IMG/VR virus record: IMGVR_UViG_3300037882_001090
Coordinates: 1 to 35,609 of that record
DNA: 35,609 bases
From: a virus
Strand: one strand, 5' to 3'
The translations under genes were made by a program, and so were the position numbers. Every line of letters starts with the position of its first letter. Position 1 is the first letter of the stretch. Below, in pieces: positions 13,375-18,233 of this stretch. The notes below the pieces were generated by a model. That model was not told the origin of the DNA. It made no database searches and saw only the letters and a list, made by a program, of their open reading frames with translations.

Positions 13375-13779
13375 ATGGGACGGCCTTCATCATACACACC
13401 AGAGCTAGGTAGTAAGATATGCGAAGGTATTGCACAGGGCACAAGCCTAGTAAGAGTATGTTACGCGCTAGATATTGATTATGGCACTGTTTATGACTGG
13501 ATTAAGAAAAATCCAGATTTTGCCGATAACTACACGCACGCACGCGAGGCTCAAGCCGATTACTTAGCTGATGGTGTTCTTGACATAGCCGATGATTCAA
13601 CACTTCAGGCGGATGACAGGCGGGTTAAGATTGACGCTAGAAAATGGTATGCTGGAAAACTCAAGCCCAAAAAATACGGAGACAAGATAGGCGTTGGTCA
13701 GGCTGACGGCTTAGAGCCCATGAAACAGGATGTCAGCCTTATGGTGGAATTTGTTAATGCCAGCAATCCAGCTTCCTGA
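13375..13779 (+). CDS. terS: Terminase small subunit
   Basis: Recognises the packaging site and recruits the large subunit. Seen: the family opening GRPSSYTPELGSKICEGIAQGTSLVRVCYALDIDYGTVYDWIKKNPDFADNY (a helix-turn-helix at residues 2-50), then AREAQADYLADGVLDIADD and a conserved RRVKIDARKWYAGKLKPKKYGDK motif. The 134-residue length is normal. AAAGG precedes the ATG. Its last codons overlap the original start of the large terminase at 13757, the usual terS-terL arrangement. Confidence 0.85.
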   Translation: MGRPSSYTPELGSKICEGIAQGTSLVRVCYALDIDYGTVYDWIKKNPDFADNYTHAREAQADYLADGVLDIADDSTLQADDRRVKIDARKWYAGKLKPKKYGDKIGVGQADGLEPMKQDVSLMVEFVNASNPAS

Positions 13780-13843
13780 AAAAGCCCAGTGCCTATTCAA
13801 GCCCTCAAGGTATAAAATACTTTACAACAAACTTTATAAGTGA
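13757..13843 (+). pseudogene. terL: Truncated 5' fragment of terL (copy 1)
   Basis: ATG 13757 has a ribosome site (GGTGGA, 8 bp away) and reads 23 terminase codons up to RYKILY, then NKLYK and TGA (13841-13843). The conserved 60 bases (13766-13825) encode the same 20 residues as 14567-14626 except Cys/Ala and Lys/Arg, yet 16 of 20 codons differ. The break comes exactly before the P-loop. It is the ancestral terminase start left behind when the endonuclease gene and a second copy of the 5' end were inserted. Confidence 0.85.
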
Positions 13844-13856
13844 TATAAAGTTTCTC

Positions 13857-14564
13857 ATGAAAGTTATAAAGCTAGAAAAAATACACAATAGGACAAGAAA
13901 CAGGCCGCTGAAAGATTATTCAGGGCAGGTTTTTGGCCGCTTAACAGCAATCGAATTGGTGAGCCGAGACGAAAGCTCTAACAATAGGCATATTTGGCGA
14001 TTTCTGTGTGAATGCGGTACAATCAAGGATATAAGAATTCCGACCGTTAGGAATGGCACAACAAAGTCATGTGGCTGCATTGCCAAGGAAACCCTGATAA
14101 GAAGAAACACTGTCCACGGATTATCAAGATCTAACAAGAAAGAATACCGTTCATGGAAGGATATGCGAGCTAGGTGCTTTAATCCAATGGACACCGATTT
14201 TCATAGCTATGGCGGGCGTGGAATCACTGTTTGTGAGCGCTGGAATGACTTTGCGTCATTTTTTGCTGATATGGGAAAAAAGCCAACACCAAAACATACA
14301 ATTGACAGGGTTGATGTAAACGGCAACTATGAGCCGTCTAATTGCAGGTGGGCTGATGCAGAAACACAAGCAAACAATAAACGCAATAATCGTAAGCTAG
14401 AGCATAATGGCGAAACTAAAACATTAAGCCAAATAAGTCGTGACAATAACATAGAGAGAAGAGTTGTTTCGTATAGATTAGGCGTAGGTATGAACATAGA
14501 AGAGGCCGTAAAAAACATTGATTTTAGAAAAAGGAATTCCCCCATTAAAGGATTTTCCGCATGA
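13857..14564 (+). CDS. HNH homing endonuclease inserted in terL
   Basis: A free-standing homing endonuclease of the phage type with a zinc-binding N-terminal half (CECG...SCGC, residues about 51-80), the conserved block YRSWKDMRARCFNP...YGGRGITVCERWNDFASFFADMG, and an HNH-like core HTIDRVDVNGNYEPSNCRWA followed by QANNKRNNR. The C-terminal 45 residues (HNGETKTLSQISRDNN) resemble a NUMOD-type DNA-binding helix. It sits between the truncated and re-started large terminase, and its TGA overlaps the new terL ATG as ATGA. Such enzymes spread by cutting alleles that lack the insertion. Confidence 0.85.
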   Translation: MKVIKLEKIHNRTRNRPLKDYSGQVFGRLTAIELVSRDESSNNRHIWRFLCECGTIKDIRIPTVRNGTTKSCGCIAKETLIRRNTVHGLSRSNKKEYRSWKDMRARCFNPMDTDFHSYGGRGITVCERWNDFASFFADMGKKPTPKHTIDRVDVNGNYEPSNCRWADAETQANNKRNNRKLEHNGETKTLSQISRDNNIERRVVSYRLGVGMNIEEAVKNIDFRKRNSPIKGFSA

Positions 14565-15823
14565 CTATTCAGCTCCCTGAGAAGGCTCAAGCGCTGTTTA
14601 GGCCATCGCGCTACAAAATCCTTTATGGGGGGCGATAACGAGGGGGAGCAAAGAGTCAAAGCATAGCGCGTGCGTTACTCATTCAAGGTGCGGCAGAAAA
14701 GCATAAGATACTCTGCGCTCGTGAAATTCAGAAGTCTATCGGTGAATCGGTGCATAGCTTACTCGCTGAGCAAATAGAGCAACTTGGCTTGCAAAACTTC
14801 TACACCGTGCAGAAAGCCAACATATACGGCAAGAACGGCACTGAATTCTTGTTTGCTGGACTTCGTACCAATATCAGCAACATTAAATCAATCCCTAATA
14901 TCACCCGCGCATGGGTAGAAGAAGCGCAAAGCGTATCTAAGGCTAGTATGTCGGTACTCATTCCAACGGTACGCGCTGAAGGTTCTGAAATATGGCTATC
15001 GTTCAACCCTGAGCTGGAAGATGATTACATTTATCAGAACTATGTGGTTTACCCTCCAGATGATGCAATGGTGGTAAAGATAGGCTGGCAAGATAACCCG
15101 TGGTTTCCTGATGTGCTAAAGAAAGAGATGGAAGGCCTAAAGAAACGCTCCCTTTCGGAATATGAGAATGTGTGGGAGGGAAAGCCCAAGCAGGCGATTG
15201 AAGGCGCAATCTTTGCCAACGAAATTAATCAAGCTGCCCTTGAGGGTAGAATAACGAAGGTTCCACTTGCCGCAGGTGTTCCTGTACAGACATTTTGGGA
15301 CTTGGGACAATCAGACAATACAGCAATATGGTTTGTGCAGATTGTCGGTATGGAGTACCGTTTAGTTGATTACTATCAGTCAAGCGGTGTTAAAATGGCG
15401 CATTACATAGAGATATTAGCAGAACGCGGGTATAAATACGGTGAGCATTGCCTCCCTCATGATGCAGAGCATGAACAGCTAGCAGCGCAGTCCACAATTA
15501 AACAACAGCTTCAGAACGCCATTAGAGATAATCCTTCGCTGGGAAGTGCAGTACGCATTGTGCCGCGCATACCTAAAAAGGCTCTAGGCATTGATGCGGC
15601 GCGCAACATCTTCGGCCAGTGTGTGTTTGACAAAGACAAAACACAGGATGGTTTACAGTGCCTACGACATTATGCCTTTGCGCTAGATGTTGAGACTGGT
15701 AAGGTAAGCAAAGAGCCTAGACACGATGCGTTTTCTCATGGAGCGGATGCGTTCTTGTGCTTTGCTCAAAACTATAAGCGGCCACAAGCAAAAGTTGGCA
15801 AATCCATTATGATGGGAAGATAA
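14561..15823 (+). CDS. terL: Terminase large subunit, interrupted by an in-frame TAA in the P-loop
   Basis: The packaging ATPase and nuclease. ATG 14561 (AAGGA 8 bp upstream) reads 25 codons ending KILYGGR, then TAA (14636-14638), then RGGAKSQSIARALL and on without stops to 15823. Without the six bases TAACGA the P-loop would be YGGRGGAKSQ, as in relatives. Further motifs are intact: Walker B RAWVEEAQ, SFNP, and nuclease acids in FWDLGQSDNTAIW, LPHDAEH and HDAFSHGADAF. Total length about 420 codons is normal. Restarting after the stop (GTG 14750) would lose the P-loop, so either recoding, for example a CGA-to-CGA hop, or a non-functional allele is implied. Confidence 0.85.
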
Positions 15824-15902: not shown

Positions 15903-18233
15903 ATGGCGGCCACACTTTCATTTGAGCGCAAAATGACAGAAGCCACGGAAAATGCCGATATTTTAGAAAGAGCAAAGAAGCGTTTCCAATACGCTAAGGA
16001 CTCGTGGTCAGAAGTTTATCTTAAAGCCAAAGAAGACCAAGAGTTCATGGGTGACCAGATGTTTGCCCAGTGGGATGAGCGAGAAGCGTTTGGTCGCGCT
16101 TCGATAGGCCGCCCAGTATTTCAGATTGACCAATTAACACAGTTTATCCATCAAGTCGAAAACGACATTCGGATGAATACCCCCACGATTAAAACCATAC
16201 CCGTTAGTGAGGGCGCAGATATTGAAACCGCCGAGGCGTTGCAGGGCGCAATTAAAGCGATTGAATACAAAAGCAATGCGGACGTTGCTTATGATACCGC
16301 CGCCAGCTTTGCGATTAAGTCGTCTTTTGGCTTTATTACGGTTGACCATGATTATGCGAATGATGCAGACTTCATCCAAGAGTTAAAAATAGAGCGGGTG
16401 GTTAATCCGCTTTCCGTATTGATTGACCCTGATTCCATAACATCCGATGGAAGCGATGCAAAATACGGCTTTATTGCGATTTCTTACACAGTAGAGGAGT
16501 TTCAAAAACTTTATCCTGACGCGGATGCTGTATCGTTTACCGACAAATCGCCCCGTCGTGACCTTAAGCTTACCGATTCAATCACCTGCGTTATTTATTA
16601 TGAGATTGAAGAAGATTACGAAGAGATGGGAATGCTTGACGATGGCTCCACCGAAGAGGCAATCAAAGGCAAAAAATACAAACACACACGAAAAATAGCC
16701 AAGCGCAAAGTAATGCGCTATAAGTTGGCTGGTAATGACGTTTTGGAAGAGGCAAGATTCCCTGGCAAATACATTCCTATTGTTCCTGTCTATGGTGAGG
16801 AATCTTGGGTGGATGGGAAACGTGGATTGTTTAGTTTAATTCGGAAAGCAAAAGATTCGCAAAAGCTTTATAACCTATCTCGCTCTATTGAGGCGGAGAT
16901 TCTCTTTAAACAGCAGCAAGCCCCCGTTCAGGCCGCTGTTGGGCAGATGGAGGGTTTTGAGGAAGATTGGAAAAATCCCGACAAGGCTATGGTGCTTTAC
17001 TATAAGCAGACAGATGTTGACGGAAACCCCGCTCCCGCTCCACAACGGCTGCAACCCCCCACAATATCTTCTGGCTATACGAATTTCTCACAAATGGCCG
17101 AGAATAACATTAGGCAAACCCTCGGCATGTATAATGCTACCGCAGGAAAGCGCGAGGGCAACGCTTCTGGTGTAGCATTGCGCCAACTCGAACAAAGCTC
17201 TGATGTTGGAAACTATCATTTCAGTGACAACCTTGTGCGCTCAATTACGCAAGTTGGCAAGATTCTTGTTTGTGCCATTCCTGAAATCATGGATAGCCCC
17301 CGCTTTGTTCAAATGATTGATAAAGAGGAAAAATCAAAAACAATTGGAATCAATGGCAAGAGAGCAAAAGAACAAGACCGCGATTACTATTTTACCAAAG
17401 ACGAAACGTATGATGTGCGGGTGGTTACGGGGCCTTCTTTCACGACACAACGCCAAGAGGCTGGTGCTGCTTACAATCAAATCATTCAAGCAATGCCTGA
17501 TTTAATGCCTGTTATTGGTGATTTAGTATTTGAGAATCAGGATACTGTCGGTTCGCAGGCCATAGCCGCAAGAATGAAAAAGTTTATTGACCCCAAGTTC
17601 TTGGATGAAAAAGAAAAAGATGGAATGCAGGACGCGCAGGCGCAGGAAGTTGATAGAATTGTCAGTGAATTGCAAGCACAGATAGGGCAACTAACGGCAG
17701 AGCTACAGAACAAGCAGGCCGATACACAACTTAAAATGGCTGAAATACAAGTTAAATCTAAAGAGGCTGAAATTAAAGAGGCTGAAATTAGGCTGAAATT
17801 GTTTCAGGCGCAAAAACCAGAGGCCGAGCAAGTGGATGACTCTTTTGACAAGGCTCTGAAGGCTAAAGAGGTAGAAATTAAAGCATATGACGCTGAAACA
17901 AAACGCATTGCGGCGTTACAAAAAAGCCCTGAAGCGCAAATGGGGATTAAATTAGACACTAGTGGTTTTCAGGTTATGAAAACACCAGAACAGCTAGAGC
18001 TTGAGCAGCGAGAGCTTGGTGTGCTTGCAGAAAAACAAGCATACGAAGCGCAAAAGGATGCTTACGAAGCAGAAAAAGAAGAGAGGGAGCGCATGGATAA
18101 AATAGCGCAAACCGAGGCATTGATTGTTGGAATAAATAGCGTTCAACAAACACTCGGCGCTTTAGTTCAGGCCGTAAGCCAGCCAATTGAAGTTGTGAGA
18201 GACGAGCAAGGCAACCTAATCGGGGCTAGATAA
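15903..18233 (+). CDS. Portal protein, P22 type
   Basis: Forms the dodecameric ring for DNA entry and exit. Matches P22-like portals in N-terminal sequence (RFQYAKDSWSEVYLKAKEDQEFMGDQMFAQWDE...GRPVFQIDQLTQFIHQVENDIRMNTPTIK), a central DPDSITSDGSDAKYGF segment, and NASGVALRQLEQSS. The C-terminal 200 residues are a long glutamine, lysine and glutamate-rich coiled coil, like the P22 barrel. The 776-residue length is close to P22 gp1 (725). The start is uncertain: ATG 15903 has no ribosome site, while ATG 15933 (MTEATEN) has GAG 7 bp upstream. Confidence 0.9.
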   Translation: MAATLSFERKMTEATENADILERAKKRFQYAKDSWSEVYLKAKEDQEFMGDQMFAQWDEREAFGRASIGRPVFQIDQLTQFIHQVENDIRMNTPTIKTIPVSEGADIETAEALQGAIKAIEYKSNADVAYDTAASFAIKSSFGFITVDHDYANDADFIQELKIERVVNPLSVLIDPDSITSDGSDAKYGFIAISYTVEEFQKLYPDADAVSFTDKSPRRDLKLTDSITCVIYYEIEEDYEEMGMLDDGSTEEAIKGKKYKHTRKIAKRKVMRYKLAGNDVLEEARFPGKYIPIVPVYGEESWVDGKRGLFSLIRKAKDSQKLYNLSRSIEAEILFKQQQAPVQAAVGQMEGFEEDWKNPDKAMVLYYKQTDVDGNPAPAPQRLQPPTISSGYTNFSQMAENNIRQTLGMYNATAGKREGNASGVALRQLEQSSDVGNYHFSDNLVRSITQVGKILVCAIPEIMDSPRFVQMIDKEEKSKTIGINGKRAKEQDRDYYFTKDETYDVRVVTGPSFTTQRQEAGAAYNQIIQAMPDLMPVIGDLVFENQDTVGSQAIAARMKKFIDPKFLDEKEKDGMQDAQAQEVDRIVSELQAQIGQLTAELQNKQADTQLKMAEIQVKSKEAEIKEAEIRLKLFQAQKPEAEQVDDSFDKALKAKEVEIKAYDAETKRIAALQKSPEAQMGIKLDTSGFQVMKTPEQLELEQRELGVLAEKQAYEAQKDAYEAEKEERERMDKIAQTEALIVGINSVQQTLGALVQAVSQPIEVVRDEQGNLIGAR

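Follow-up and report, generated by a model that had tools for sequence, protein, structure and literature searches.

In fungal mitochondria (Allomyces, Glomus), endonuclease open reading frames (ORFs) situated in atp6, cox2, nad3 and atp9 bring with them a synonymously diverged 3' end of the gene that they enter, and this foreign but mostly synonymous end replaces the native one of an essential gene (PMC3630166). Among phages, free-standing HNH homing endonucleases (Mob, I-HmuI-like) have genes that overlap a neighbor and are expected to nick a conserved gene nearby; in their usual form they carry no replacement end of the target. The P-loop coding sequence of the large terminase gene, terL, is a known target of mobile elements and includes the commonest TerL intein sites; in mycobacteriophages, such inteins aim a mobile endonuclease element at this sequence and restore TerL by protein splicing (PMC5050341). 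In phage T4, the homing endonuclease gene mobA lies upstream of gene 60, whose coding sequence is interrupted by a gap of 50 nt. A stop comes after the take-off codon, and the landing codon is a matched one. The gap is bypassed by a proven and efficient process that involves a stem-loop and nascent peptide signals. The gene 60 insert has been proposed to protect against the homing nuclease, and a terminase of phage Hau3 is a candidate for bypassing (PMC5009743). Hops over an in-frame stop between matched codons, by which nine bases give one amino acid, have been engineered in synthetic E. coli constructs, and no natural case is known (PMC5009743).

The window considered here, which is a complete, metagenome-derived IMG/VR virus record of 35,609 bases, has features in common with each of these systems. 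The fungal gene hybrids are the nearest documented ones. They supply a 3' end downstream of the resident gene, however, whereas the phage element supplies a 5' end and a new start, and its junction with terL disrupts the frame. Unlike the usual free-standing HNH genes, this one is accompanied by a replacement end of its target, and unlike in the mycobacteriophages, there is no intein. With gene 60 the locus shares the endonuclease gene upstream, the insert in the target and the take-off codon followed by a stop and a matched landing site. The insert is only 6 nt, however, and the signals of gene 60 were not found. The break in terL is most likely nuclease damage rather than a proven ribosome hop.

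A stop codon in the terL P-loop

Read from its restart at ATG 14561, terL has the sequence TAT GGG GGG CGA TAA CGA GGG GGA GCA AAG at 14624–14653. The TAT occupies 14624–14626 and the GGG GGG 14627–14632, while the TAA (14636–14638) is flanked by a potential take-off CGA at 14633–14635 and a potential landing CGA at 14639–14641. A first-pass annotation had described exactly this arrangement of six extra bases with a stop between identical codons, and its other observations on the locus are borne out as well: about 395 codons are open after the stop (394 when measured), relatives have an unbroken P-loop at this point, an HNH gene lies directly upstream (its ORF, 13857–14564, ends four bases inside the restart ATG), and no later start retains the P-loop. 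The first of these, GTG 14750, does not include it, and a downstream restart was rejected for this reason. When the TAA is read as X, the product becomes MTIQLPEKAQALFRPSRYKILYGGR-X-RGGAKSQSIA..., and the frame stays open until the natural TAA at 15821. The placement of the hexamer is ambiguous, since it could equally be CGATAA ahead of CGA, and so on. The coordinates of the locus are collected in Table 1.

Table 1. Features of the terminase region and its neighbors in the window
Feature	Position	Strand	Basis
Terminase small subunit gene, terS	13375..13779	+	Pfam Sf6_terminase, E 3e-33; phrog_1482
terL 5' end, first copy (truncated): MPAIQLPEKAQCLFKPSRYKILY followed by NKLYK and a stop	13757..13843	+	Translation; copy comparison
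HNH endonuclease gene, 235 aa, phrog_374 family, frame intact	13857..14564	+	ORF; phrog match
AAAGGA, putative Shine-Dalgarno-like site for the terL restart, within the HNH 3' end	14547..14552	+	Sequence
terL 5' end, second copy (recoded replacement), from ATG to P-loop CGA	14561..14635	+	Sequence; copy comparison
Extra hexamer TAACGA (in-frame TAA and second CGA)	14636..14641	+	Sequence; comparison with relatives
Rest of terL, Terminase_3 and RNaseH-like nuclease domains, 394 open codons	14639..15823	+	Pfam, E 1e-38
P22-like portal gene, intact	15903..18233	+	Pfam P22_portal, E 5e-136

With the terL body as query, 80 relatives were obtained from IMG/VR, and the P-loop was compared in 66 of them; near-identical records of this virus were possibly left out of this set. 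The motif GGRG(G/S/A)xK(S/T) is kept in 65 of the 66, the exception being the contig L002, and arginine occupies its position in all 186 distinct intact contexts. The six bases therefore truly set this gene apart from its family. In this genome TAA is an ordinary stop, ending 11 of the 21 genes tested, and a reassigned TAA is thereby ruled out. Paired slippage on the two G runs, worked through by hand, would give YGGAITRGAKS or YGGDNEGGAKS, neither of which is a Walker A motif. CGA is a rare codon in this genome (20 of 7954), and the probability that two codons drawn from it at random are identical is 0.022. By themselves, however, the matched codons are weak evidence given such a level of chance identity, and the repair of a break with a duplication of 3 nt would give the same pattern.

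An HNH gene between two copies of the terL start

The first copy of the terL 5' end, the resident gene's native start in truncated form, overlaps terS, and its homology stops at TAC 13825, just ahead of the P-loop codons. The HNH ORF that follows is free-standing, with its own stop. The AAAGGA sequence within its 3' end is found eight bases upstream of the restart ATG and may serve as the ribosome-binding site of the terL restart. The two copies agree in 18 of 20 residues, and yet, codon by codon (n=20), there are 14 synonymous changes, 2 amino-acid changes and only 4 identities. A protein so nearly identical from DNA so heavily recoded indicates that the second copy was once selected for function, and it is a recoded replacement start that the HNH element brought.

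As in the fungal hybrids, then, an endonuclease ORF lies between two copies of one gene end (starting at 13757 and 14561), and the copies differ mainly by synonymous changes. The supplied end is not joined in frame, either here, where it runs into TAA 14636, or in L002, where one nucleotide is added; it is joined in frame in Xanthomonas phage LucasX and in contig L089, which are described below. The hexamer probably sits at the very junction between the recoded copy and the resident terL.

A second broken allele

In L002 the P-loop reads TAC GGG GGG CGA C GGC GGA GGC AAA, with one extra C after the same codon. A reading of this sequence as a missing G was rejected, since it gives GGDGGGKS and D occurs in 0 of the 186 contexts. 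L002 has the same AAAGGATTT ahead of its terL restart, together with an HNH remnant of 66 C-terminal residues (50% identity to the HNH protein of the window) from which the nuclease part is deleted. The indel is preceded by GGGGGGCGA in both broken alleles, and GGGGGGCGA is found in none of the 186 distinct intact contexts, so that this stretch most likely derives from the recoded copy of the element. Two different indels at one codon are thus associated with the HNH element. At 2705–2735 of L002, where the catalytic part of the HNH gene is deleted, the first terL copy (MTILLPEKLN) continues directly into the HNH C-terminus, and the restart is retained.

These two genomes are the only carriers of the terL element that were found (n=2). 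Two IMG/VR pattern scans for extra bases, whose match lists were complete, yielded no further broken P-loops of this type, against at least 120 intact ones in IMG/VR; L098 and L099, matches of one such scan, are intact terL genes. Two more IMG/VR scans gave no further broken terL among the matches listed, which were mostly of another TerL family (YGGSAGGGKS). The terL body of the window is 73% identical to that of L002 and 74% to that of L003. In the terL tree, ((L002, L005) 0.997, window) 0.971, the intact and HNH-free L005 groups with L002 and leaves the window outside, and for this reason two separate acquisitions of the element are more likely than an ancestral gain followed by loss in L005. 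In TerL relatives from Acetobacteraceae and Rhodanobacter genomes (L237–L243), similarity to the query extends no further than the first ~200 residues, and the nuclease half is diverged or replaced.

Related arrangements at other loci

In LucasX, an isolated phage (L492), a truncated and a recoded copy of the 5' end of LUCX_97, at 1122–1184 and 2056–2118, flank an HNH gene of the same family, and the second copy runs on seamlessly into the gene. LUCX_97 looks, by eye, like a macro-domain-like gene. In L089 an HNH gene separates a truncated from a complete gene start (232–294 and 794–850), again with a seamless junction, and the target looks on inspection like a YqaJ-type exonuclease-like gene. 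In Escherichia phage vB_EcoM_APEC (L488), the HNH gene follows a gene with a new C-terminus (segments 1250–1356 and 1919–1987), and the displaced native C-terminus (FIKESDPAYADACKELGK) can be read at the end of the HNH gene; this is a probable mirror form in which the 3' end has been replaced.

Duplicated target ends are a minority among about 45 other HNH loci. Clear cases are limited to the window, LucasX and L089; L002 has a partial one, and L488 a probable 3' version. For prophages, HNH matches in 658 genomes of two classes were few and weak, and no convincing duplicated gene end was among them; a search of plasmids gave no match. The arrangement in L093 (1396–3645) is a different one, in which a terL-like gene and a portal gene are separated by an HNH gene of the same family whose stop abuts the portal ATG.

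How was terL broken?

On balance, we slightly favor the view that the hexamer is an endonuclease scar or an imprecise junction of the HNH element, leaving a loss-of-function terL allele. A phage HNH homing element would have invaded terL at the P-loop coding sequence, bringing an endonuclease gene and a recoded terL 5' end made up of a Shine-Dalgarno-like site, a start codon and the coding sequence as far as the P-loop arginine. The HNH enzyme presumably cuts the P-loop codons. When such an element works, it would give the invaded gene a new start, remove the cut site and keep the protein; the anatomy of LucasX and L089 displays the new start and the apparent retention of the protein, and cutting is the presumed part. 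In the window and in L002, the recoded copy and the resident gene would have been joined uncleanly, separately in the two genomes, with TAACGA added here and C added there. These indels could be scars that end joining left after cleavage, or the insertion junctions themselves could have been imprecise, and CGA TAA CGA is the expected leftover when three bases are duplicated and some filler is added. Since phages normally home with precision, end joining has to be invoked for an imprecise junction. Ordinary translation would stop at codon 25 in the window and shift frame in L002. Because ordinary decoding thus yields a 25-residue peptide, the allele is most likely without function, and the contig would be a defective prophage or a phage maintained by intact copies in the same cells. 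No integrase was found, which weakens the case for the former. In both carriers the terL body is under normal constraint (pN 0.19, with saturated synonymous sites) and its amino-acid divergence is not raised; with the rest of the gene intact, any loss of function must be recent, and must have occurred twice. A scar at an endonuclease site would nevertheless account for both the window and L002 without new biology.

Could the ribosome mend the break? The first-pass annotation had suggested that it hops, and this we regard as unlikely. Peptidyl-tRNA-Arg would leave CGA 14633, skip UAA and re-pair at CGA 14639, while the hexamer shields the DNA from the HNH enzyme. The suggestion was right in that nine bases encoding one arginine would restore the conserved P-loop, YGGRGGAKS, exactly. 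Its appeal is increased by the identity and rarity of the flanking codons, by the constraint on terL in both carriers and the lack of decay elsewhere in the window, by the HNH element at the same site in both broken alleles, and by the fact that this geometry works in synthetic constructs (PMC5009743). No positive evidence was found for it, however. With one extra C instead of six bases, L002 has no stop and no matched landing codon, so that a matched-codon hop is impossible there, and as L002 is the sole other carrier found, the arrangement is not conserved in related phages as a bypass of the gene 60 type would be. Gene 60 requires elaborate signals, and a natural in-frame stop-hop would be without precedent (PMC5009743); RNA folding detected no stimulatory structure at the take-off site (z -0.58, 0.40 and 0.21). 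The matched codons, moreover, could result from chance (~0.02) or from the duplication mentioned above. That this is the first natural in-frame stop-hop, with a six-base insert protecting terL from the neighboring homing endonuclease at no cost to the protein, is a shade less likely still. The annotation had also called for a search for the same hexamer beside HNH genes, and what was found is a second HNH-linked broken terL, that of L002, with an added C in place of TAACGA. The link that it drew to a homing endonuclease is now firmer than it was stated, given the recoded terL start and the break in L002 after the same GGGGGGCGA.

Somewhat more doubtful than a hop, and about equal to each other, are two further readings. 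One is that the hexamer and the single C of L002 are assembly or sequencing artefacts, absent from the real genomes. The window does rest on a single metagenome-derived record, and the extra base of L002 adjoins six consecutive G. Errors in short reads, however, do not typically take the form of a novel six-base insertion; the two broken alleles, the only ones found, each follow GGGGGGCGA and each have the HNH element; and the missing-G reading of L002 gives an aspartate that none of the 186 contexts has. The other is that the hexamer was selected as a protective insertion, with TerL function supplied by intact phage in the same cells or by a minority variant of the genome. The insert would further destroy the cut site, and since a recoded start and a Shine-Dalgarno-like site come with the element, it appears to be built to keep terL alive. 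Against this, no intact terL is present elsewhere in the record (a search of the genome against itself gave one DNA match), and recoding should by itself be enough to protect the site, as in LucasX. Plain readthrough of the TAA, which would lengthen TerL by two residues (YGGR-X-RGGAKS), is very improbable: the frame is open on either side, but the two residues break a Walker A spacing that all relatives share with the solved homologue Sf6 gp2, the genome uses TAA as an ordinary stop, and L002 is left unexplained. Even less credible is a self-splicing intron or intein that removes the disruption. The P-loop is a favored site of intein insertion (PMC5050341), but no Rfam family matches, and since the first copy ends ahead of the P-loop codons, any joining of exons keeps the TAA in the downstream exon.

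Why does such a locus matter? Its anatomy shows that phage HNH elements can carry the recoded start of the gene that they invade, which makes them a natural parallel to the engineered home-and-rescue gene drives and a 5'-end mirror of the 3'-end gene hybrids of fungal mitochondria. In both carriers found, an essential packaging gene is broken at the join. If the indels are scars, they would be a natural record of a failure mode of home-and-rescue drives. If the protein is still made, the locus would provide the first stop-hop from nature and strengthen the idea that bypassing evolves as protection from homing endonucleases.

Genome context

The portal, coat and Sf6-type small terminase genes mark the virus as a P22-like podovirus. 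A scan for promoters and terminators gave nothing above shuffled sequences. The other genes tested in the window all look intact, and none looks decayed. One gene, at 297–1037 on the minus strand, encodes a Mom-like DNA modification protein (phrog_1384, E 6e-53) that is possibly involved in anti-restriction.
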